Origin: Hymenobacter jeollabukensis | Lineage (GTDB): Bacteria > Bacteroidota > Bacteroidia > Cytophagales > Hymenobacteraceae | Direction of reading: 5' to 3' | DNA length: 64,000 nt | Assembly (NCBI RefSeq): GCF_005771675.1 | Contig: NZ_VAJM01000001.1 | Location: forward strand, 1 to 64,000 | In this document: piece by piece, positions 30,457 through 43,773 of the stretch | How positions within the stretch are numbered: the first letter of the stretch is position 1 | Layout: each line of letters starts with the position of its first letter | The notes under the pieces: model-generated | Told to the model about the DNA's origin: nothing | The model's database searches: none | What the model saw: the letters and a program-made list of their open reading frames with translations, nothing else | Made by a program: the position numbers and the translations under genes

Positions 30457-33420
30457 CTAGAACAGCGTCATCTGCGACTTGGGCTTGCGTTGCAACAGGG
30501 CCTGCGCCTGGGCCACTTCCTCGGCCGAAATTTCCACCGGGCCGTCGTGCTCGGGCAGCGGGCCGTCCTCGGGCGTGGTGGCCGAGGCGGGGCGCGGAAT
30601 GGTGGCCGGGCCCTTGCGCTTGGCCTGGGCCTTGCGCTCCGGCTCGGGGCCTTCGTCGGTGAGCAGCTCCACGCCGAGCACCTTGAAATAGTTGAGCTTG
30701 TTGCCCATGGCCTTCCAGCCCTTCACGTCGATGAACTCGTGCAGGTGCAGGCGCTCCGAGAGCTTCTCCCCCTTCTTTTCCTTCTGCACTTTCACCTCGA
30801 TTTCGGGCGCCACGCCGCAGGTGGCCACCAGCAGGTGCGTGCCCTTGGTTTCGGGGATGAAGACGAATTTCTTGGCCAGGGTGCTCGTCTCGATGCGGAA
30901 CCGTTTGACGTAGTGCGTCTTGGTTTCGCCTTCCAGGTACACCGCGTTGATGACCGTGTCGGGCTCGAATTTGCGCAGCAGCACCAGGTCGCGCATCACG
31001 AAGTGAATGGCCGGGTCGGGCGCAGTCAGTTCGTACGAGCCGTCCTTGTAGATGGCCAGCACCGCGTCCTCGGTATCGAAGGTGCCCAGGAAGCGGCCGT
31101 GCCCGCCGGTGTTCAGGCGGCCCACCACTTCGTCGAAGAACACCTCGCGCCCGCCGAGCGTGGAGTCGCCCTTGGACTTCTGGGTAATCTTCTTCACCGG
31201 CTGCTTGGTCACGATGTTGCCCATCGAGCCCTTGCCCTTGATGGCCAGCTCGGCAAAGTCGAAGTCGAACTTCTTCACCCGCGCCGGGGCCTTGTCCGAC
31301 AGCTCCACCGACAGGATTTCCGACTCCGAGTTAGGGTTGGCCGTCAAGTACAGCACCTTGGAGTTCTTGCCGCCTTTGGTCAGATCGTAGGACTTATCAC
31401 GCGTGATGCCCGTGACCAGGAAACGTTTGGCGTAGCTGATACCCGACGGGCCATCCTGGTACACCATGTTGTACACCAGCCGGTCGTCGTTCTTGTTGTA
31501 GACGCCCACGTGCAGCAGGTCCTTGCCGACGAAGGTCTTCTCCGCAATCCGGGTCACCACGAAGGAGCCGTCGCGGCGGATGGCAATGATGTCGTCCAGG
31601 TCGGAGCAGTCACACACGAACTCGTCCTTCTTCAGCCCGTGGCCCACGAAGCCGTCCTGGCGGTTCACGTACAGCTTCTGGTTGGCCACGGCCACTTTCT
31701 GGGCCGTCACCACGTCGAAGGTGCGCAGCTCGGTTTTGCGCTCCTTCGCGTCGCCGTACTTCTTCAGCAGGCCCTCGAAGTAGCGGATGGCGTAGCGCGT
31801 GAGGTTGGCCAGGTTGTCGGCCACCTCTTCCAGCTCGGCTTCCAGCTTCTGGATGTACTCGTCGGCCTTGAAGCCGTCGTACTTCGAGATACGCTTGATG
31901 CGGATTTCCGTCAGGCGGGTCAAATCATCCTCCGTAATGGCGCGGCGCAGCACGATGCGCGTGTCATTGGCCTTTTCCCGCTCCCCGTCGATGCGCACGT
32001 ACTTTTTCAGCCCGGCGTCGATGGTTTCCAGGATCTGCTCCCAGGTTTCGCACTCCTCGATCTTGCGGTAGATGCGGTTTTCGATGAAGATTTTCTCCAG
32101 CGAGGCCGAATGCCAGCGCTCCTGCAGCTCGTCCTGCCGGATCTGCAGCTCCCGCTCCAGCAGGCGCAGCGTCTTGCTGGTGCTCAGCCGCAGCATGTCC
32201 TCCACCGCCACGAAGCGCGGCTTCTCGTCGATGATGACGCAGGTGTTGGGCGAGATGCTGATTTCGCAGTCGGTGAAGGCGTACAGCGCGTCCATGGTCA
32301 GGTCCGGCGACACGCCCGCGGGCAGGTGCACCTGGATTTCCACCACGGCGGCGGTGTTGTCCACCACCTTCTTGATCTTGATTTTGTTGGCTTCCGAGGC
32401 CTTCACGATGCTTTCCATCACGCCGGTGGTCGTCGTGCCGTAGGGCACGTCGCGGATGATGAGCATGGTTTTGTCGACCTTCTCGATGGTGGCGCGCAGG
32501 CGCAGCTTGCCGCCGCGCACGCCATTATTGTAATTCGAGATGTCGCAGAGGCCGCCGGTGGGAAAGTCCGGGTACAGGATGATGTCGCGGCCCTTGAGCA
32601 CGTCAATCGAGGCCTTGCACAACTCGCGGAAGTTGTGGGGCATGATCTTGGTCGACAGACCCACGGCAATACCTTCGATGCCCTGGGCGAGCAGCAGCGG
32701 GAATTTCACCGGCAGGGTCACCGGCTCGCGCTTGCGGCCGTCGTAGCTGGCCTGCCACTCGGTGGTGTCGGGGTTGAAGACCACGTCGAGGGCAAACTTC
32801 GAGAGGCGGGCCTCGATGTAACGCGGAGCGGCGGCGCCGTCGCCGGTGCGCACGTCGCCCCAGTTGCCCTGGGTTTCGATCAGCAGGTCCTTCTGGCCCA
32901 GGTTCACGATGGCGTCGCCGATGCTGGCGTCGCCATGCGGATGGTACTGCATGGTCTGCCCGATGACGTTGGCCACCTTGTTGAAGCGGCCGTCGTCCAT
33001 TTCCTTCATCGCGTGCAGGATGCGGCGCTGCACGGGCTTGAGGCCATCCTCGATGGCGGGCACGGCCCGCTCCAGAATCACGTAGGAGGCATATTCCAGA
33101 AACCAGTTCTGGTACATGCCGCCGATGCTGCTGATGTCGTGGATGGTTTCGCCCGGCTTGAAGTCGCCTTCCTCGGCCTGCACGGCCAGGGCCAGCTCTT
33201 CGGCCGCGTCGTCGCTGCCGTCGGCTTCCTCGGCGCTCAGCTCGTCGGCTTCGGCCAGCGGCTCCCCGTCGGGGCCGTGGGCAGTTTCCGGGGCGGCGGT
33301 TTCGTCATTATCGGCCGCGGCGGGTGCGGCCCCAAAATCGATGGTATCCCCGACGCCGAACAACTCGGGGTCCTGGCCGTTCAGGTTCTGCTCGTCGGGG
33401 GTGTGGTTGTCGTTTGACAC
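30457..33420 (-). CDS. parC: DNA topoisomerase IV/gyrase subunit A
   Basis: A 987-residue type IIA topoisomerase subunit that cuts and rejoins DNA. The breakage domain has AIEDGLKPVQRRILHAMKEM and QYHPHGDASIGDAIVNLGQ; the catalytic tyrosine is Tyr201 in APRYIEARLS. A coiled-coil tower and a C-terminal beta-pinwheel follow. The first 90 residues are an acidic low-complexity extension before the conserved core, unusual for the family. The matching parE lies 8.4 kb away on the same strand rather than next to it. A -7 box is at 33531-33538. Confidence 0.93.
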   Translation of the reverse strand: MSNDNHTPDEQNLNGQDPELFGVGDTIDFGAAPAAADNDETAAPETAHGPDGEPLAEADELSAEEADGSDDAAEELALAVQAEEGDFKPGETIHDISSIGGMYQNWFLEYASYVILERAVPAIEDGLKPVQRRILHAMKEMDDGRFNKVANVIGQTMQYHPHGDASIGDAIVNLGQKDLLIETQGNWGDVRTGDGAAAPRYIEARLSKFALDVVFNPDTTEWQASYDGRKREPVTLPVKFPLLLAQGIEGIAVGLSTKIMPHNFRELCKASIDVLKGRDIILYPDFPTGGLCDISNYNNGVRGGKLRLRATIEKVDKTMLIIRDVPYGTTTTGVMESIVKASEANKIKIKKVVDNTAAVVEIQVHLPAGVSPDLTMDALYAFTDCEISISPNTCVIIDEKPRFVAVEDMLRLSTSKTLRLLERELQIRQDELQERWHSASLEKIFIENRIYRKIEECETWEQILETIDAGLKKYVRIDGEREKANDTRIVLRRAITEDDLTRLTEIRIKRISKYDGFKADEYIQKLEAELEEVADNLANLTRYAIRYFEGLLKKYGDAKERKTELRTFDVVTAQKVAVANQKLYVNRQDGFVGHGLKKDEFVCDCSDLDDIIAIRRDGSFVVTRIAEKTFVGKDLLHVGVYNKNDDRLVYNMVYQDGPSGISYAKRFLVTGITRDKSYDLTKGGKNSKVLYLTANPNSESEILSVELSDKAPARVKKFDFDFAELAIKGKGSMGNIVTKQPVKKITQKSKGDSTLGGREVFFDEVVGRLNTGGHGRFLGTFDTEDAVLAIYKDGSYELTAPDPAIHFVMRDLVLLRKFEPDTVINAVYLEGETKTHYVKRFRIETSTLAKKFVFIPETKGTHLLVATCGVAPEIEVKVQKEKKGEKLSERLHLHEFIDVKGWKAMGNKLNYFKVLGVELLTDEGPEPERKAQAKRKGPATIPRPASATTPEDGPLPEHDGPVEISAEEVAQAQALLQRKPKSQMTLF

Positions 33421-33887: not shown

Positions 33888-33935
33888 CGCAACGGCCCGC
33901 CGGCGCACTACACTGTGCACTGGCGGGCCGTTGCG
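33888..33935 (-). terminator. Terminator of the kai operon
   Basis: A 14-bp stem CGCAACGGCCCGCC/GGCGGGCCGTTGCG with an inner GCAC/GTGC pair, 15 bases after the stop at 33951. It closes the five-gene kaiC-to-receiver unit. Confidence 0.8.
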
Positions 33936-33950
33936 GATAAACCGGGGAGC

Positions 33951-34370
33951 TTACTCGGCTGGCACGTACTGGAAGTGCTGCAGCAGCACGTCGTCAATTT
34001 TTTCCTTGGTCAGCGGCTTGTTCAGAAAGCCGGCAATTTTCAGCTGTTGCATCCGCTCCACGTCCTGTGGGTGCAGGGAGGTGGTCAGCATCACGATAAC
34101 CGTTTCGGGTTTATTGGCCGCGGGCAGGTGCTCGTAAGCCTGTAGAAACTCAAATCCATCCATCACGGGCATTTTCACGTCCAGAAACACCAGTACCGGC
34201 TCACTCGGCTTCGGGCCCGGGCGGCGGGCTTGCAGCGCGTCCATGGCTTCCAGGCCATTTTGGGCAACCAGTAGTTCGTCGGCTACGGCCAAGCGCTTCA
34301 GCAGCAGCCGGTTCAGGTAATTGGTGGTTTGGTCGTCGTCAACGAGCAGAATACAGGAAGGGAGGGGCAT
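33951..34370 (-). CDS. Single-domain response regulator
   Basis: A 139-residue receiver domain with no output domain. The acidic triad is DDD at 11-13, the phospho-acceptor is Asp64 in VFLDVKMPVMDG, the switch threonine lies in MLTTS (96-97), and Lys118 is in LNKPL. It is the last gene of the kai operon, 62 bases after the PAS kinase, and is probably its phosphate receiver. With no DNA-binding domain it must act through another protein. Confidence 0.92.
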   Translation of the reverse strand: MPLPSCILLVDDDQTTNYLNRLLLKRLAVADELLVAQNGLEAMDALQARRPGPKPSEPVLVFLDVKMPVMDGFEFLQAYEHLPAANKPETVIVMLTTSLHPQDVERMQQLKIAGFLNKPLTKEKIDDVLLQHFQYVPAE

Positions 34371-34432
34371 TGCAGCGGCAAAAAGGGGGTGTGCCGCGGG
34401 CGCCGGGGCCCGCGCAGGGACGCTTACGGAAT

Positions 34433-36148
34433 TCAGCGGCGGAAGTACACGGAAAACGTCGAACCGACGCCCACCGTGCTTTGGACCTCGACGTGGCCGC
34501 CCGCGTTTTCCATGATGCGCTTGACCATGTAGAGCCCGATGCCCGAGCCTTCGACGTGGTCGTGGAAGCGCTGGAACATGGCAAACAGCTTGGCATTGCC
34601 GGCCACCTTCAGGCCCAGACCGTTGTCCTGCACGGTCAGCACCTGGTGCTCGGCGGTGGCGTGGCAGCGCACCTGCACCCGGGGTGTGCGGTCGGGGTGG
34701 CGGTACTTGAGGGCGTTACTGAGCAGGTTATAAATCACCGAGCGCAGGTTTTTCTCCGAAAACGGCACCGGCGCGCAATGCTGCACGTCCACGTCCAGTT
34801 GGGCGCCGGAGGCTTCCATCAGGGGCACCAGGTCCAACATCACGGCGCGCACCACCGGCGCCAGCTCGATCAGCCCCTGGGGCTGCTCGTGCTCCTTCTG
34901 CAGGCGCGTCACTTCGGTCAGGTGCTCAATGGTGCGCTTGAAGCGGTCCACCGACCCCTGCATCATGCGCACCAGCGGCTCGACGGCAGGTCCGGCCACC
35001 AGCTCGGCGGGCAGCTCGCCCAACAGGGCCGCCAGCAGCCCTTCGATATTGTTGATCGGGGCCTTGAGGTCGTGCGAGGCGGTGTAAATGAAATTGTCCA
35101 GGTCGCGGTTGATGCGCAGCAGCTGCTCGTTGCTGGCGCGGAGCAGTTCCTGAGCTTCGGCCACGCGGGCCTGGGTGACTTTGTGCTCGTGGATGTCAGT
35201 GTAGGCCCCGATCCACTGAATAATCTCGCCCTGTTCGTTGCGCGAGGGCAGCGCCCGGCCCAGCATCCAGCGAAACTCGCCCGTAGCGCTGCGGATGCGG
35301 CACTCGATTTCCAGCGCTTCCCCGCTCTCGATGGCCTCGCGCCAGCGCTGCACCGCGCCCGGTAGGTCGTCGGGGTGAATAAGGGCGCTGAAGCTGTGCG
35401 CGGGGTCGATCTGCGCGTTGTGGCCGGTGTACTCGAACCAGCGGCGGTTAAGGTAGGTGTTGCGGCCGGCAGAGTTGGCCGTCCAAGCAATGTGCGGCAT
35501 GCCCTCCAGGATGCGGCTGGTTTCGGCAGCGGTCTGCTCGGCGGCCTGCTGGGCCTGGGCCTGGGTGCGCAGCGTTTCCTGCTGGCGTTCCAGCAGGGTG
35601 TTCTGCTCGGTCACCCGGGCCCGGATGGCGCTGATTTCGCGCTGCTCCGACACATCCGTAACGATGACGGCCAGTACCGGCGTCTGATTGAACACCAGCA
35701 CGTTCAGGGCCAGGGCCACGGGGCGCTGCTGGCCGTTGGTAGCCTGTAGGGGCATTTCGCCCTTGCTTTTGCCCCGCCAGGCCTTGGCCAGCAGGTCTTC
35801 CCAGTAGGCTTGGCAATCGGTGGGCACGAAGTCGTGAAACGCGACGCCCATCATGCTCTCCAGCGGGGCCTTGACCATACCGGCCAGGCAGGCGTTGCAG
35901 TAGAGCACGGTGCCGTTCTGGCTGAGCAGCAGCGCGCCCTCGCTCATCTGCTCGATGAGGGTGCGGTAGCTCTGGTCGGCGCCTTCGAGGGTGAAGATGC
36001 GCGGCCCCTCGGGTGCCTGCACGGCCAGCGCATCGATGGTGCCGGTGCGGATGGCCGTTATGAGGTCTTCAGCTTCCTGCAGCCGGTGGCGCAGCGCCTC
36101 GTTTTCCTGCGCCAGCTCAGCGGCAGTGAGCGGCCCGCGGTCAGTCAT
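34433..36148 (-). CDS. PAS histidine kinase of the kai operon
   Basis: A 571-residue soluble sensor kinase. An N-terminal coiled coil (1-40) is followed by PAS 1 (about 55-170), a coiled coil, PAS 2 (about 210-325, with WFEYTGHNAQIDPAHSFSAL), HisKA with His359 in YTASHDLKAPI, and an ATPase domain (N-box YNLLSNALKY 473-482, DNGLG 508-512, GSGIGLY 534-540). No membrane segment is present. It lacks the KaiB-like sensor domain of cyanobacterial SasA. Its ATG overlaps the end of the second kaiB by 8 bases (ATGACTGA), so the two are translationally coupled. Confidence 0.92.
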   Translation of the reverse strand: MTDRGPLTAAELAQENEALRHRLQEAEDLITAIRTGTIDALAVQAPEGPRIFTLEGADQSYRTLIEQMSEGALLLSQNGTVLYCNACLAGMVKAPLESMMGVAFHDFVPTDCQAYWEDLLAKAWRGKSKGEMPLQATNGQQRPVALALNVLVFNQTPVLAVIVTDVSEQREISAIRARVTEQNTLLERQQETLRTQAQAQQAAEQTAAETSRILEGMPHIAWTANSAGRNTYLNRRWFEYTGHNAQIDPAHSFSALIHPDDLPGAVQRWREAIESGEALEIECRIRSATGEFRWMLGRALPSRNEQGEIIQWIGAYTDIHEHKVTQARVAEAQELLRASNEQLLRINRDLDNFIYTASHDLKAPINNIEGLLAALLGELPAELVAGPAVEPLVRMMQGSVDRFKRTIEHLTEVTRLQKEHEQPQGLIELAPVVRAVMLDLVPLMEASGAQLDVDVQHCAPVPFSEKNLRSVIYNLLSNALKYRHPDRTPRVQVRCHATAEHQVLTVQDNGLGLKVAGNAKLFAMFQRFHDHVEGSGIGLYMVKRIMENAGGHVEVQSTVGVGSTFSVYFRR

Positions 36149-36470
36149 GGAGGTACGGGTCGTTGGGGTCAGGCACGAGGCCGAGCAAGGACAGCACACG
36201 GCGGCGGTCCGACAGGTCGCCGACCAGGAAGCGCACCAGCCCCGGTTGCTTCTTGATGAGCGTGGGCGCGGCCACGATACGCTCCGCCCTGGCCAGTTCG
36301 GGCTGCTGGTAGATGTCGACGATCTGCAGCTCGCAGCGCCCCGGCAGGTACCGCTCGCAGATGTCCTGCAGGTTGCGCACGGCCTGGGTGGAGTTGGGCG
36401 TGGCGCCAGTAATGAAGAGGTGCAGCACGTATTCGGGCCCGGCCGAATCCGGGGCTTGCTCTGGTTCCAT
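36141..36470 (-). CDS. KaiB-like protein 2
   Basis: A 109-residue thioredoxin-like KaiB family protein. It has the first strand and helix YVLHLFITGATPNSTQAVRN, the cis-proline AAPTL (67-71) and the C-terminal VGDLSDRRRVLSLLGL. It is more diverged than the neighbouring KaiB: the usual RVLIGLD ending is RVLSLLG. KaiB proteins bind the CI ring of KaiC in a rare refolded state. It lies between kaiB-1 (10-bp gap) and the kinase (8-bp overlap), so it may be the kinase's partner, as the sensor half of SasA is. Confidence 0.88.
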   Translation of the reverse strand: MEPEQAPDSAGPEYVLHLFITGATPNSTQAVRNLQDICERYLPGRCELQIVDIYQQPELARAERIVAAPTLIKKQPGLVRFLVGDLSDRRRVLSLLGLVPDPNDPYLHD

Positions 36471-36480
36471 ACAGCCTGGC

Positions 36481-36804
36481 TTACTTGTGCAGTCCCGGCC
36501 GGATATCGAGGCCCACCAACACCCGCTCCTGGTTCGACAGGTCGCCGATGATCTTGCGAATGGGCGAGGGCACCTTGCGCACCAACGTGGGAATGGCCAG
36601 GATCTGGTCCCCCTCGGCCAACTGGGGGTGCTGCATCAGGTCGATGACTTCCAGGCGGTAACGCCCGTGCAGGTGCTCTTCGCAGTACTTTTTGAGGTTG
36701 GCCAGGGCGGTGACGGATTTCACCGTCTGCCCGGCCACATATAGGCGCAGTTCCCAGGTTTCCTCGTCCATAGTTGATTGCGTAGGGGCCAGTGTCGTCT
36801 GCAT
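36481..36804 (-). CDS. kaiB: KaiB protein 1
   Basis: A 107-residue KaiB. It carries [20 protein letters not shown], the [15 protein letters not shown] segment and the strongly conserved ending [18 protein letters not shown] (83-100), very close to cyanobacterial KaiB. It should bind KaiC and slow or reset its phosphorylation cycle. The ATG at 36804 leaves nine bases after the kaiC stop. An alternative ATG at 36771 would give a start nearer to that of most KaiB proteins. Confidence 0.92.
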
Positions 36805-36813
36805 ACCGGACTG

Positions 36814-38544
36814 TTACGAATTTGCGGGCGCAGCGGCCGAATGATTGCCCGGGCGGGCGTTGTGGCCGGCCGCAATCTGCTGACGGGCCTGGGAGAGTTC
36901 CTGGTGGCGCTGCTCTTCTTCCTGGTTCGAGCGGCGCAGCTCCTCCTCCACCGACTCAAACTCGGTGCGCAGGTTGGCAATGGTAGCTTCGAGCACCCGG
37001 CGCTTGCGTTCCAGCTCCCGCTCCCGCCGCTCGATTTCCTGCTGGGCGGCCACGGCCACGGCCTGCTCCTGCAGAAACTGCGTCTGGCGCGAAGCCCCCG
37101 TCACGATGCCGCCGGGGCCGATGACCACGTCGAGCAGGCGGATGCCCTCGTGGGTCACCACGAACTCGCGCACCTGGTTGGAGTGGGCCATGCCGCGGGC
37201 CTTGAGGATGCTCACGCCGCGGTTTCGCTCGCCGATGCCTTCCAGGTCGCGCACGTGAATCCAGGTATCGACCAGCGACGAGACACCTTCCTCGGTCATT
37301 TCCTGGTTGGCGCTGCGCCCGCTCACCAGGGCCGTAAACAGGGCCGTAATGCCCTGCACCTTCAGGTAGTCGATGAGGCGGGTGAGCATGCCGCGTACTT
37401 CCGTGATGCTGCCCACCGACACGAGGTTGCTGATCGGGTCGATGACCACGGCCTGGGGCCGGAACTGGCCGATGAGCTTGTGCAGGGTCACCAGGTGCTG
37501 TTCCAGCCCGTTGAGCGTAGGCCGGGAGGCTTCGATGTGCAGCAGCCCCTGCTCCACGAAGGGCTGCAGGTCCAGCCCGACGGAGCGCATGTTGCGCATC
37601 AGCTGCTGCGGCGACTCCTCGAAGGCGAAGTAGAGGCACCGCTCGCCGCGGCGGCAGGCTTCGGCGGCGAAGGCAGCGGCCAGCGTGGTCTTGGCCGTGC
37701 CGGCCGTGCCGGTAATGAGGGTGCTGCTGCCGCGGTACAGGCCGCCGCGGGTAAACATTTCGTCCAGCCCCGGCACCCCCGTCGATACCACCTCGTTGGA
37801 TACCTCGTGCTCCAGCTTCAGGCTGGTGACGGGCAGCACCGAAATGCCGTCCTCGGTAATCAGGTAGGGGTACTCGTTGGTGCCGTGGGTGCTGCCGCGG
37901 TACTTCACGATGCGCAGGCGGCGGGTGGTAATCTGGTTGATGACCCGGTTGTCGAGCAGAATCACGCAGTCCGATACGTACTCCTCCAGGCCCTGGCGCG
38001 TGAGCGAACCGTCCCCCCGCTCGGCGGTGATGATGGTGGTAACGCCCTTGTCCTTCAGCCAGCGAAACAGCCGGCGGATTTCGGAACGCAGCACGGCCTG
38101 GTTGCTGAAGCCCGAAAACAGGGACTCAATGGTATCGAGCACCACGCGCTTGGCCCCGATCGAGTCGATGGCGTAGCCCAGGCGGATAAACAGGCCCTCC
38201 AGGTCGTACTCGCCGGTTTCCTCAATTTCGGAGCGGTCGACGTGCACGTGGTCGAGGCGCAGCTTCTTGTCGGCCACCAGCTGCTTGAGGTCGAAGCCCA
38301 GGGAGGTGACGTTGGCGGCCAGCTCGTCGGCGGTTTCCTCGAAGGCCATCAGCACGCCCGGCTCGTCGAACTCCTCGATGCCGCGCACCAGGAACTCCAC
38401 GCTCATCAGCGTCTTGCCGCAGCCGGCCGAGCCGCAGAGCAGCGTGGGCCGGCCCTGGGGCAGCCCGCCGTTGGTTATTTCATCGAGGCCATCGATGCCC
38501 GTGGGGGCTTTGGGTAACTGGGGCAGCGCGGGGGCAGCGGTCAT
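36814..38544 (-). CDS. kaiC: Circadian clock ATPase/kinase KaiC
   Basis: A 576-residue double-domain KaiC. CI has Walker A GSAGCGKT (38-45) and the catalytic pair E69-E70 in MAFEE. CII has Walker A GTAGTAKT (279-286) and E309-E310 in AFEE. The phosphorylation segment MTEEGVSSLVDTWIHV places T417, S422 and S423 where cyanobacterial KaiC has T426, S431 and T432, so the site pair is Ser-Ser. Residues 485-560 form a charged coiled coil in place of the short A-loop tail. It is the first gene of kaiC-kaiB-kaiB-kinase-receiver. No kaiA is present. Confidence 0.95.
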   Translation of the reverse strand: MTAAPALPQLPKAPTGIDGLDEITNGGLPQGRPTLLCGSAGCGKTLMSVEFLVRGIEEFDEPGVLMAFEETADELAANVTSLGFDLKQLVADKKLRLDHVHVDRSEIEETGEYDLEGLFIRLGYAIDSIGAKRVVLDTIESLFSGFSNQAVLRSEIRRLFRWLKDKGVTTIITAERGDGSLTRQGLEEYVSDCVILLDNRVINQITTRRLRIVKYRGSTHGTNEYPYLITEDGISVLPVTSLKLEHEVSNEVVSTGVPGLDEMFTRGGLYRGSSTLITGTAGTAKTTLAAAFAAEACRRGERCLYFAFEESPQQLMRNMRSVGLDLQPFVEQGLLHIEASRPTLNGLEQHLVTLHKLIGQFRPQAVVIDPISNLVSVGSITEVRGMLTRLIDYLKVQGITALFTALVSGRSANQEMTEEGVSSLVDTWIHVRDLEGIGERNRGVSILKARGMAHSNQVREFVVTHEGIRLLDVVIGPGGIVTGASRQTQFLQEQAVAVAAQQEIERRERELERKRRVLEATIANLRTEFESVEEELRRSNQEEEQRHQELSQARQQIAAGHNARPGNHSAAAPANS

Positions 38545-41823: not shown

Positions 41824-43773
41824 CTACACCAGCTCGGCCTCAGCGGCGGGCACGATGGTTTCGCTGGCGGGCAGCGTGTCGGAAGTCACCAGGTCCTTCT
41901 CGATGCGCAGGTGGTCGATGATGAATTCCTGGCGGGCGGGGGTGTTCTTGCCCATGTAGTAGGTCAGCAGCTTCTGGATGGAGCGGTCCGACTGCAGAAT
42001 CACCGGCTCCAGGCGGATGTTGTCGCCGATGAACTTGCCGAACTCGTCGGGGCTGATTTCGCCGAGGCCCTTGAAGCGGGTGATTTCCGGGTTGCGGCCC
42101 AGCTTCTTGATGGCGGCCTGCTTTTCGCGCTCGTCGTAGCAGTAAATCGTCTGCTTCTTGTTGCGCACCCGGAACAGCGGGGTTTCCAGGATGTAGACGT
42201 GGCCGTTGCGCACCAGGTCGGGGAAGAACTGCAGGAAGAAGGTGAGCAGCAAGAGGCGAATGTGCATGCCGTCCACGTCGGCGTCGGTGGCAATGACCAC
42301 GCGGTTGTAGCGCAGCCCTTCCAGGCCTTCCTCGATGTTCAGCGCGTGCTGCAGCAGGTTCAGCTCCTCGTTTTCGTAGACGATTTTCTTTTTCATCCCG
42401 AAGCAGTTCAGCGGCTTGCCGCGCAGGCTGAACACGGCCTCCAGCTCCACGTTGCGGCTCTTGGTGATGGAGCCCGACGCGGAGTCGCCCTCGGTGATAA
42501 ATAGCGTCGTCAGGCCTTCCTTGTCCAGCGTCTTGCCCTCGCCGAAGTGGAAGCGGCAGTCGCGCAGCTTGCGGTTGTGCAGGCTGGCTTTCTTGGCGCG
42601 CTGGTTGGCCAGCTTCTTCACGCCCGCCATGTCCTTCCGCTCCCGCTCGCTCTGCTCGATGCGGCGCTTGAGGCCTTCGGCCGCCTCGGGATTTTTGTGC
42701 AGGTAGTTGTCGAGGTGCTCCTTCACGAAGTCGACCACGAAGTTGCGCACGGTCACGGCGCCCTCGGGCTCCATCGTAATCGAGCCCAGCTTGGTCTTGG
42801 TCTGCGACTCGAACACGGGCTCCTGCACCCGGATGGCAATGGCCCCCACGATGCTGGCGCGGATGTCGGTGGCGTCGTAGTCCTTCTTGTAAAACTCGCG
42901 CAGGGTCTTCACGATGCCCTCCCGGAAGGCCGCCAGGTGGGTGCCGCCCTGGGTGGTGTACTGCCCGTTGACGAAGGAGTAGTACTCCTCGCCGTAGTCG
43001 TTGCCGTGGGTCAGGGCCATTTCGATGTCCGTGCCCTTGAGGTGAATGACCGGGTAGCGGATGGCCTCCGGGTCGGTTTTGCGCTCCAGCAGGTCGCGCA
43101 GCCCGTTTTCGGAGTGAAACTTCTGCCCGTTGAAGTTGATGGTCAGGCCCGCGTTCAGATAGGCGTAGTTCCAGAACTGGCTTTCCAGGAAGTCCGGGAT
43201 AAAGCGGAAGTTGCGGAAGATGGTCGGGTCCGGCTCGAAGGCCATCATGGTCCCGTTGCGCTGGGAGGTCTTGATGGGTTTCGGGTCGCTGATGAGCTTG
43301 CCGCCCTGAAACTCGGCCGACTTCATCATGCCCTCGCGCACGCTCTGCACCACGAAGTTGGTGCTCAGCGCATTCACAGCCTTGGTACCCACCCCGTTCA
43401 GGCCCACCGACTTCTGGAAGACCTTGCTGTCGTACTTGCCGCCGGTGTTGATTTTGCTCACCACGTCGACCACCTTGCCCAGCGGAATGCCGCGGCCGTA
43501 GTCGCGCACCGACACGCGCTGCTCGGTGATTTTGACCTCGATGGTGCGGCCGTAGCCCATCATGTGCTCGTCGATGGAGTTGTCGATGACCTCCTTGACG
43601 AGGATGTAAATGCCGTCGTCGGGCGAGGATCCGTCGCCCAGCTTGCCGATGTACATGCCCGGGCGCAGGCGGATATGCTCCCGCCAATCCAACGAACGGA
43701 TGGAATCCTCGTTGTAGCCGTGGTCGGCGGGGGCGCTTGGCGCGCTTTCTAAGGGCAGTTGCTGCTCAGCCAT
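41824..43773 (-). CDS. parE: DNA topoisomerase IV/gyrase subunit B
   Basis: A 649-residue ATPase subunit of a type IIA topoisomerase. The GHKL ATPase domain has the Bergerat motifs ([39 protein letters not shown]). The TOPRIM domain has [10 protein letters not shown] and [13 protein letters not shown]. Length fits ParE rather than long GyrB. It works with the A subunit at 30457-33420, which is unusually far away. The ATG at 43773 is the normal start. Confidence 0.93.

Follow-up and report, generated by a model that had tools for sequence, protein, structure and literature searches.

Operons in which kaiC, kaiB and a PAS-domain histidine kinase gene follow one another are in print for Rhodopseudomonas palustris and Rhodobacter sphaeroides (PMC4794148), as are Bacteroidetes that possess KaiB2/KaiC2 alone (PMC5520375); statements on papers cited by PMC number hold for the excerpts of those papers that were drawn on. 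The KaiBC of R. sphaeroides has been described as an hourglass responding to ATP/ADP (PMC10076222, PMC11372060). Kinases or GGDEF/EAL proteins were reported to adjoin kaiBC, and an N-terminal domain was reported on the kinases of kaiB-less kaiC (PMC3164672). A survey found SasA homologues outside the cyanobacteria to be without the KaiB-like domain and therefore inferred a different output pathway there (PMC5520375). The subject here is a putative kai operon on the minus strand of the first 64,000 nucleotides of contig NZ_VAJM01000001.1 of Hymenobacter jeollabukensis (the window), which encodes a KaiC, two KaiB proteins (KaiB-a and KaiB-b) and a kinase whose N-terminal element recurs in output proteins of other phyla. 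We read it as a KaiBC timer that lacks KaiA, is of the same type as that of R. sphaeroides and signals through an output arm resembling a SasA split in two, a reading whose chances we judge to be even. More tentatively, one principle may be shared by the KaiBC timers of at least five phyla, namely that any output enzyme bearing the element is coupled to the timer by an adaptor, a KaiB paralogue locked in a thioredoxin-like fold. KaiB-b and the element make a concrete, testable candidate for the output of non-cyanobacterial KaiC timers, and the element can be used to look for timer outputs in genomes.

The R. sphaeroides KaiC (KaiC-RS, PDB 8dba; PMC10076222) resembles that of the window in its coiled-coil tail, its Ser-Ser pair and the absence of KaiA, and strain 2.4.1 has the kaiC-kaiB-kinase order with the same N-terminal element on the kinase. 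R. sphaeroides 2.4.1 and Rhizobium sp. BG4 carry one KaiB and an HWE kinase, whereas in the window there are two KaiBs, each of its own class, and the kinase is of the HisKA type. The R. palustris operon likewise unites KaiC, KaiB and a PAS kinase, but a single kaiB is described and neither a shared element nor a second KaiB class is mentioned in the excerpt of PMC4794148. In cyanobacterial SasA (PDB 1t4y, 6x61) kinase output also runs through a thioredoxin-like, KaiB-like part, and the KaiB-b model matched both structures; that part is fused to the kinase there and is a separate gene in the window, where the Pfam scan found no KaiB domain in the kinase and the SasA model NF006800 gave it 73 bits (cut-off 342). 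The RtaNt kinases encoded next to kaiC in Ramlibacter and relatives share a common N-terminal domain that has been proposed to read KaiC, but are set apart by their description, with no kaiB elsewhere in the genome and an N-terminal domain that is receiver- and KaiB/SasA-like (PMC3164672). The shared element and the two KaiB classes were not found described in open-access titles and abstract openings, and Figure 4 of PMC3164672 might show tandem kaiBs. KaiC and Hymenobacter were not found together in any open-access paper.

The kaiC gene (36814..38544, minus strand) encodes 576 aa with CI and CII ATPase domains, Ser422-Ser423 and a C-terminal coiled-coil extension. PF06745 matched in two stretches, CI and CII (E 3.3e-117), and the protein scored 747.6 bits against NF006799 (cut-off 408). 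The P-loops, P-loop lysines and Glu pairs that we take to be the KaiC motifs were seen. KaiC-RS was the closest solved structure (E 1.6e-189; residues 10-550 aligned), and as the alignment spans the coiled-coil extension to residue 550 the window KaiC has the C-terminal extension of the KaiC2 type, some 50 residues that form a coiled coil. Ser422-Ser423 align with the Ser pair of KaiC-RS, and Ser-Ser was present in 71/71 coil-type KaiCs, a type assigned by a tail-length rule to 71 of 92 distinct loci. By these comparisons the protein is classed as a coiled-coil KaiC2 type nearest to the R. sphaeroides hourglass KaiC. The initial annotation had predicted a KaiBC operon that lacks KaiA and includes a kinase gene, and this was borne out: the KaiA family PF07688, which would mark a cyanobacterial KaiABC system, was found in 0/8 genomes of the genus, H. 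jeollabukensis included, and the Synechococcus elongatus positive control was matched. The CII P-loop of the window KaiC (residues 279-286) reads GTAGTAKT, with Ala replacing the Gly before Lys, a variant seen in 35/71 coil-type KaiCs.

The annotation had left open an oscillator or an hourglass, and of these the hourglass is plausible because the window KaiC has its closest counterpart in R. sphaeroides, where KaiBC has been described as one; the self-contained oscillator found no support. The relationship of the KaiC thus plausibly favours an hourglass over an oscillator. A circadian oscillator that sustains itself and has an output route of its own is a very improbable reading of the operon, for KaiC, KaiB, kinase and receiver are all encoded but no KaiA was found in the 8 genus genomes, the nearest studied KaiC is an hourglass dependent on ATP/ADP changes, and the receiver is optional.

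Two KaiBs follow kaiC on the minus strand, KaiB-a (36481..36804; 107 aa; PF07689 97.3 bits) and KaiB-b (36141..36470; 109 aa; PF07689 82.4 bits), the latter being the proposed adaptor of the output kinase. Both exceed the PF07689 cut-off of 27 and are the two PF07689 matches in the genome (6.18 Mb, 27 contigs); across the genus, 5/8 genomes had two matches and the remaining 3 had none. Both scored below the cut-offs of the NCBIfam KaiB equivalogs NF006798 (KaiB-a 106.1 and KaiB-b 77 bits; cut-off 110) and TIGR02654 (102.9 and 76.5 bits; cut-off 145.3). Among named relatives, Hymenobacter edaphi has a second KaiB 94% identical to KaiB-b. That these two proteins belong to two classes had been overlooked in the annotation.

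The classes differ at the positions equal to G88 and D90 of S. elongatus KaiB, which were located using the end coordinates given by the 4kso alignments, implying no gap, and then traced through the KaiB alignment. KaiB-a is a canonical KaiB that keeps the equivalents (G98, D100), and KaiB-b has L95 and G97. G88 together with D or N at position 90 was present in 63/63 first KaiBs and 9/63 second KaiBs, and in Hymenobacteraceae one of 29 second KaiBs (L092; L numbers denote loci and G numbers genomes) kept both residues. Among single KaiBs the pair was found in 6/10 beside an element gene and 2/16 without one. Substitution of the same positions in Thermosynechococcus elongatus KaiB (G89A/D91R) gives the fold-switched form (PMC6378743, PMC8059507); this form predominates in the mutant protein, whose binding to KaiC shows a burst phase (PMC8059507).

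AlphaFold2 models of both proteins were built from matched 51-row alignments of proteins from their own loci. The KaiB-b model had the thioredoxin-like element order b-a-b-a-b-b-a with a predicted local distance difference test score (pLDDT) of 82.1, and its structural matches were Legionella pneumophila KaiB (PDB 4kun; the best match, itself a thioredoxin-like KaiB), fold-switched KaiB, KaiC-bound KaiB-RS and SasA N-domains; ground-state KaiB was absent among the 50 matches listed. The KaiB-a model was ground-state-like (pLDDT 64.5, with blocks of the C-terminal half at about 49-60), and its first 17 structural matches were ground-state-type KaiB crystal chains, ahead of any fold-switched one. 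KaiB-b is thus modelled as thioredoxin-like, like the SasA sensor domain, and KaiB-a, less surely, as the ground fold. In a KaiB tree of 127 rows, with few columns and bootstrap not settled, and omitting 16 near-copy loci and KaiB fragments no longer than 70 aa, the 53 first KaiBs included lay inside one starred 58-row set (100/99) that contained no second KaiB, and the second KaiBs were not recovered as one resolved clade. The SasA model NF006800 matched 49/51 second and 40/51 first KaiBs, a lean so weak that sequence kinship between KaiB-b and SasA was left unused as proof.

This difference bears on another possibility, in which the KaiBs are functionally redundant or assemble into a mixed ring tuning KaiC dephosphorylation, and the element is no more than a usual PAS N-cap passed on with the operon. 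Both proteins do score as KaiB (PF07689) and the element does run straight into the PAS domain, but the classes differ at G88/D90 and stand apart in the tree, and the element helix is kept while outputs are exchanged and, by eye, where the following PAS differs (L211, L219). We consider this improbable.

The output kinase gene (34433..36148, minus strand; 571 aa) starts with an ATG at 36148 and overlaps the KaiB-b stop by 8 bases. PAS, PAS and HATPase_c domains were matched, and HisKA fell slightly below its cut-off (23.5 vs 26.9 bits); SHDLK (from 358) and stretches that presumably are the N- and G-boxes were seen. The annotation had passed over the N-terminal part of this kinase, which is the part common across phyla. 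It spans 75 residues (35894..36118, minus strand) with a coiled coil and AIRTGTIDALAV, and ends where the PAS core begins. Output proteins at other loci start alike, with a coiled coil, then AIRxGxVDALVV and then a lead-in to a PAS domain. The shared element is about 45-75 residues long and its first part was unmatched by Pfam; in a scan of 10 output proteins, none of the best matches listed started before residue 48.

An element profile (A1) was built from a 25-row alignment of output proteins. Against the window genome it gave the kinase 120.8 bits (E 1e-34), and the lone other match with E of 1 or less scored 14.7 bits (E 0.13; 45/45 candidates scored). Searches across genome samples used a threshold of E <= 1e-6, and since the larger ones scored up to 14 or up to 29 candidates per genome, weaker copies may have gone undetected. 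In the family sample the element turned up in 105/200 genomes, namely as 103 strong matches and two partial 33-bit matches (G023 and G027) that were dropped since they cover the PAS end alone. Of the 103 places, the DNA of 31 was read and KaiB was present in 31/31. The element was found in 28/395 Bacteroidota genomes with KaiB adjoining in 28/28, in 12/194 genomes of a Verrucomicrobiota sample (the phylum of G595, genome of L024) with KaiB adjoining in 11/12, and in 8/198 genomes of a Myxococcota sample (the phylum of G591, genome of L019) with KaiB adjoining at 9/9 places. Each genome in these samples had one element except G981, which had two. The lone element place without KaiB (L210/L224) is a broken gene, and no kai gene was found there in 16 kb. 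Two divergent copies, L211 (followed by a different PAS) and L219 (30 bits), keep chiefly the helix and AIRxGEVD by eye, and both adjoin KaiB and KaiC. A tblastn search of the element against plasmids matched the query's own record alone and missed the element-bearing plasmid loci L123 and L125, and was not counted because of this insensitivity.

The element was joined to HisKA (L129, L131), HisKA_3 (L021) and HWE kinases (L123, L125), to hybrid kinase-receivers (L124, L151, L206), to an HD_5 domain (L157) and to a sigma-54 activator (L220). This range bears on the proposal that the kinase is an input, its PAS domains sensing redox or another cue and reporting to KaiBC. PAS domains are often sensors. 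An input role has also been proposed for the R. sphaeroides kinase (PMC5520375, PMC10931921), but the same element is joined elsewhere to effectors, the HD domain and the sigma-54 activator, and we regard an input role as distinctly unlikely.

In one Bacteroidota family (f18; L157-L161) the loci have one KaiB. At L157 the output is the HD_5 protein, HD-GYP-like by eye, which replaces the kinase, and the N-terminal parts of its four f18 relatives are alike. The domain points to cyclic di-GMP signalling as the putative output of L157.

KaiC above the family cut-off was found in 5/8 genus, 128/200 family and 42/395 phylum genomes. Gene order was compared at 92 distinct KaiC loci, comprising 8 retrieved by a KaiB-b search and therefore biased towards KaiB-b, 3 on plasmids, the window and 80 picked from KaiC searches, mostly as best-scoring matches. 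Left out were L015-L017, whose genomes were already included as L068, L073 and L071, and L020, L027 and L028, which have no KaiC. KaiBs were counted when downstream of KaiC on the same strand. Fifty-three loci had two downstream KaiBs and an element-bearing output gene came next in 53/53; the figure was 8/24 for loci with one downstream KaiB and 0/15 for those with none. The KaiC-KaiB-KaiB-output order occurred in Hymenobacteraceae, other Bacteroidota, Verrucomicrobiota, Fibrobacterota, Myxococcota (L019) and on a Pararhizobium plasmid. Loss of this gene order in relatives had been named beforehand as grounds for giving up the idea of a KaiBC signalling operon; the order is in fact kept in relatives.

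The second KaiB and the output gene lie close together, the nearest in-frame output start being -8 to +7 bases from the KaiB stop in 52/60 loci, although choosing the nearest start favours small gaps. In G981 (L212, L220) the genes run KaiC-KaiB-KaiB-[element, kinase]-KaiB-[element, sigma-54 activator], with each output gene preceded by a KaiB; the sigma-54 activator was identified by the Pfam scan and the kinase by eye. In G055 the reading frames of the two KaiBs and of the kinase are open and KaiC is broken. At two loci, L222 and L225, a second-class KaiB is accompanied by an element kinase but KaiC is missing from the DNA read, with none upstream within 3.7 kb at L222 (contig end) or 4.9 kb at L225, and one of the two genomes (G192) had no KaiC above the cut-off. 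They are possibly a remnant or an independent use of the pair.

Among the alternatives to a split SasA-like arm, the one that survives best is that a thioredoxin-like signalling pair of KaiB-b and the element kinase works without KaiC and merely travels with kaiC-kaiB. Legionella KaiB as the best structural match of KaiB-b speaks for it, as do L222 and L225, but elsewhere among the loci read KaiB-b and the kinase adjoin KaiC, across phyla, and KaiB-b retains the conserved PTL.K..P.P.RR.IGD stretch. We think such independence unlikely.

The split SasA-like arm is proposed from the following consideration. SasA and fold-switched KaiB compete for one CI site (PMC6378743), and a KaiB that is permanently thioredoxin-like would skip the slow switching at that site, which is why KaiB-b and the element protein are read as a SasA in two pieces. 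From the gene content, residues, association and predicted folds given above we infer a sequence of binding, ring activation and transfer. KaiC would alternate between phosphorylated and dephosphorylated states following the ATP/ADP ratio. KaiB-b, already thioredoxin-like, would quickly bind the same CI face as SasA would and recruit the output enzyme through the shared N-terminal element, and gathering on the KaiC ring would switch the kinase on. KaiB-a, slowly fold-switched, would bind the CI ring and reset the timer; by displacing KaiB-b later it would turn the kinase off, and would thus be timer part and competitor at once. In Hymenobacter the phosphate may go to the neighbouring receiver, and in relatives the place of this kinase on the arm would be taken by a kinase of another type, by an HD domain or by a sigma-54 activator. 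If this is true, the same timer can be fitted with kinases of several kinds, with an HD-GYP-type domain or with a sigma-54 activator, and the pair of KaiBs may be a natural split of a fold-switching protein into switching and non-switching copies.

Several observations weigh against the split arm. Legionella KaiB, the protein that KaiB-b most resembles in structure, reportedly does not bind KaiC, and L222 and L225, having no KaiC nearby, would also fit a KaiC-independent role. A single KaiB was present in 8/61 element loci, so the second KaiB is not essential, and nine of the 63 second KaiBs, plus the third KaiB of G981, retain G88/D90. The single KaiBs of f18 branch beside the first KaiBs (99/92). 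The half of KaiB-a that determines its fold is poorly modelled, KaiB-b is by sequence closer to KaiB than to SasA, and the window KaiC scored 370.2 bits against the cyanobacterial KaiC model TIGR02655, below its cut-off of 546.25. KaiB-b, the element and KaiC may not touch.

Two further ideas were discarded. KaiB-kinase fusions, which would have supported a split SasA directly, were sought with the profiles of both KaiB classes in the open reading frames (ORFs) above 230 aa of the loci available to that search and none was found; the apparent fusions L022 and L023 are over-long ORFs entering KaiB genes from upstream, and a 6-bit match in L019 was ignored. Obligatory docking of the element on the KaiC coiled coil is countered by four element loci with a coil-less KaiC (L019, L092, L162, L163) and by 14 coil-type KaiC loci (11 KaiB-less, 3 with one KaiB) without an element gene.

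The last gene of the operon encodes a single-domain receiver (33951..34370, minus strand; 139 aa; PF00072, Response_reg, 60.2 bits), in which an acidic pocket and stretches around what we take to be the conserved Asp and Lys were seen. A same-strand receiver within 5.5 kb was present in 5/5 two-KaiB loci of the window's genus and 13/29 of the family. The receiver is therefore an optional partner outside the conserved unit. The coordinates and families of all five minus-strand genes (KaiC, KaiB, KaiB, PAS-PAS histidine kinase and receiver) were re-derived as annotated, and the gaps of 9, 10, -8 and 62 bases between them were correct. The terminator placed 3' of the receiver (33888..33935, minus strand) is a strong hairpin (-44 kcal/mol, z -8.0), but it has no classical T run, with just UUU after the hairpin in the stretch that was folded, and the terminator scan of the region gave 0 sites. 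Two minus-strand ORFs flank the kai region (30457-33420 and 41824-43773) and resemble what we presume to be A- and B-type subunits of topoisomerase IV/gyrase.

Other kai arrangements were seen among the loci. Eleven Bacteroidota loci (L135, L137-L140, L143, L145, L149, L152, L154, L155) have a coil-type KaiC without a downstream KaiB or an element gene. In L130 and L153 a KaiB lies upstream of a coil-less KaiC, followed in L153 by two long ORFs with kinase matches. A second kai system of Hymenobacteraceae (L081-L091, L093, L094) consists of a coil-less KaiC and one KaiB with no element gene; the KaiC of L081 is 36% identical to the window KaiC, and a kinase lies within 2.5 kb in one of these 13 loci (L090).

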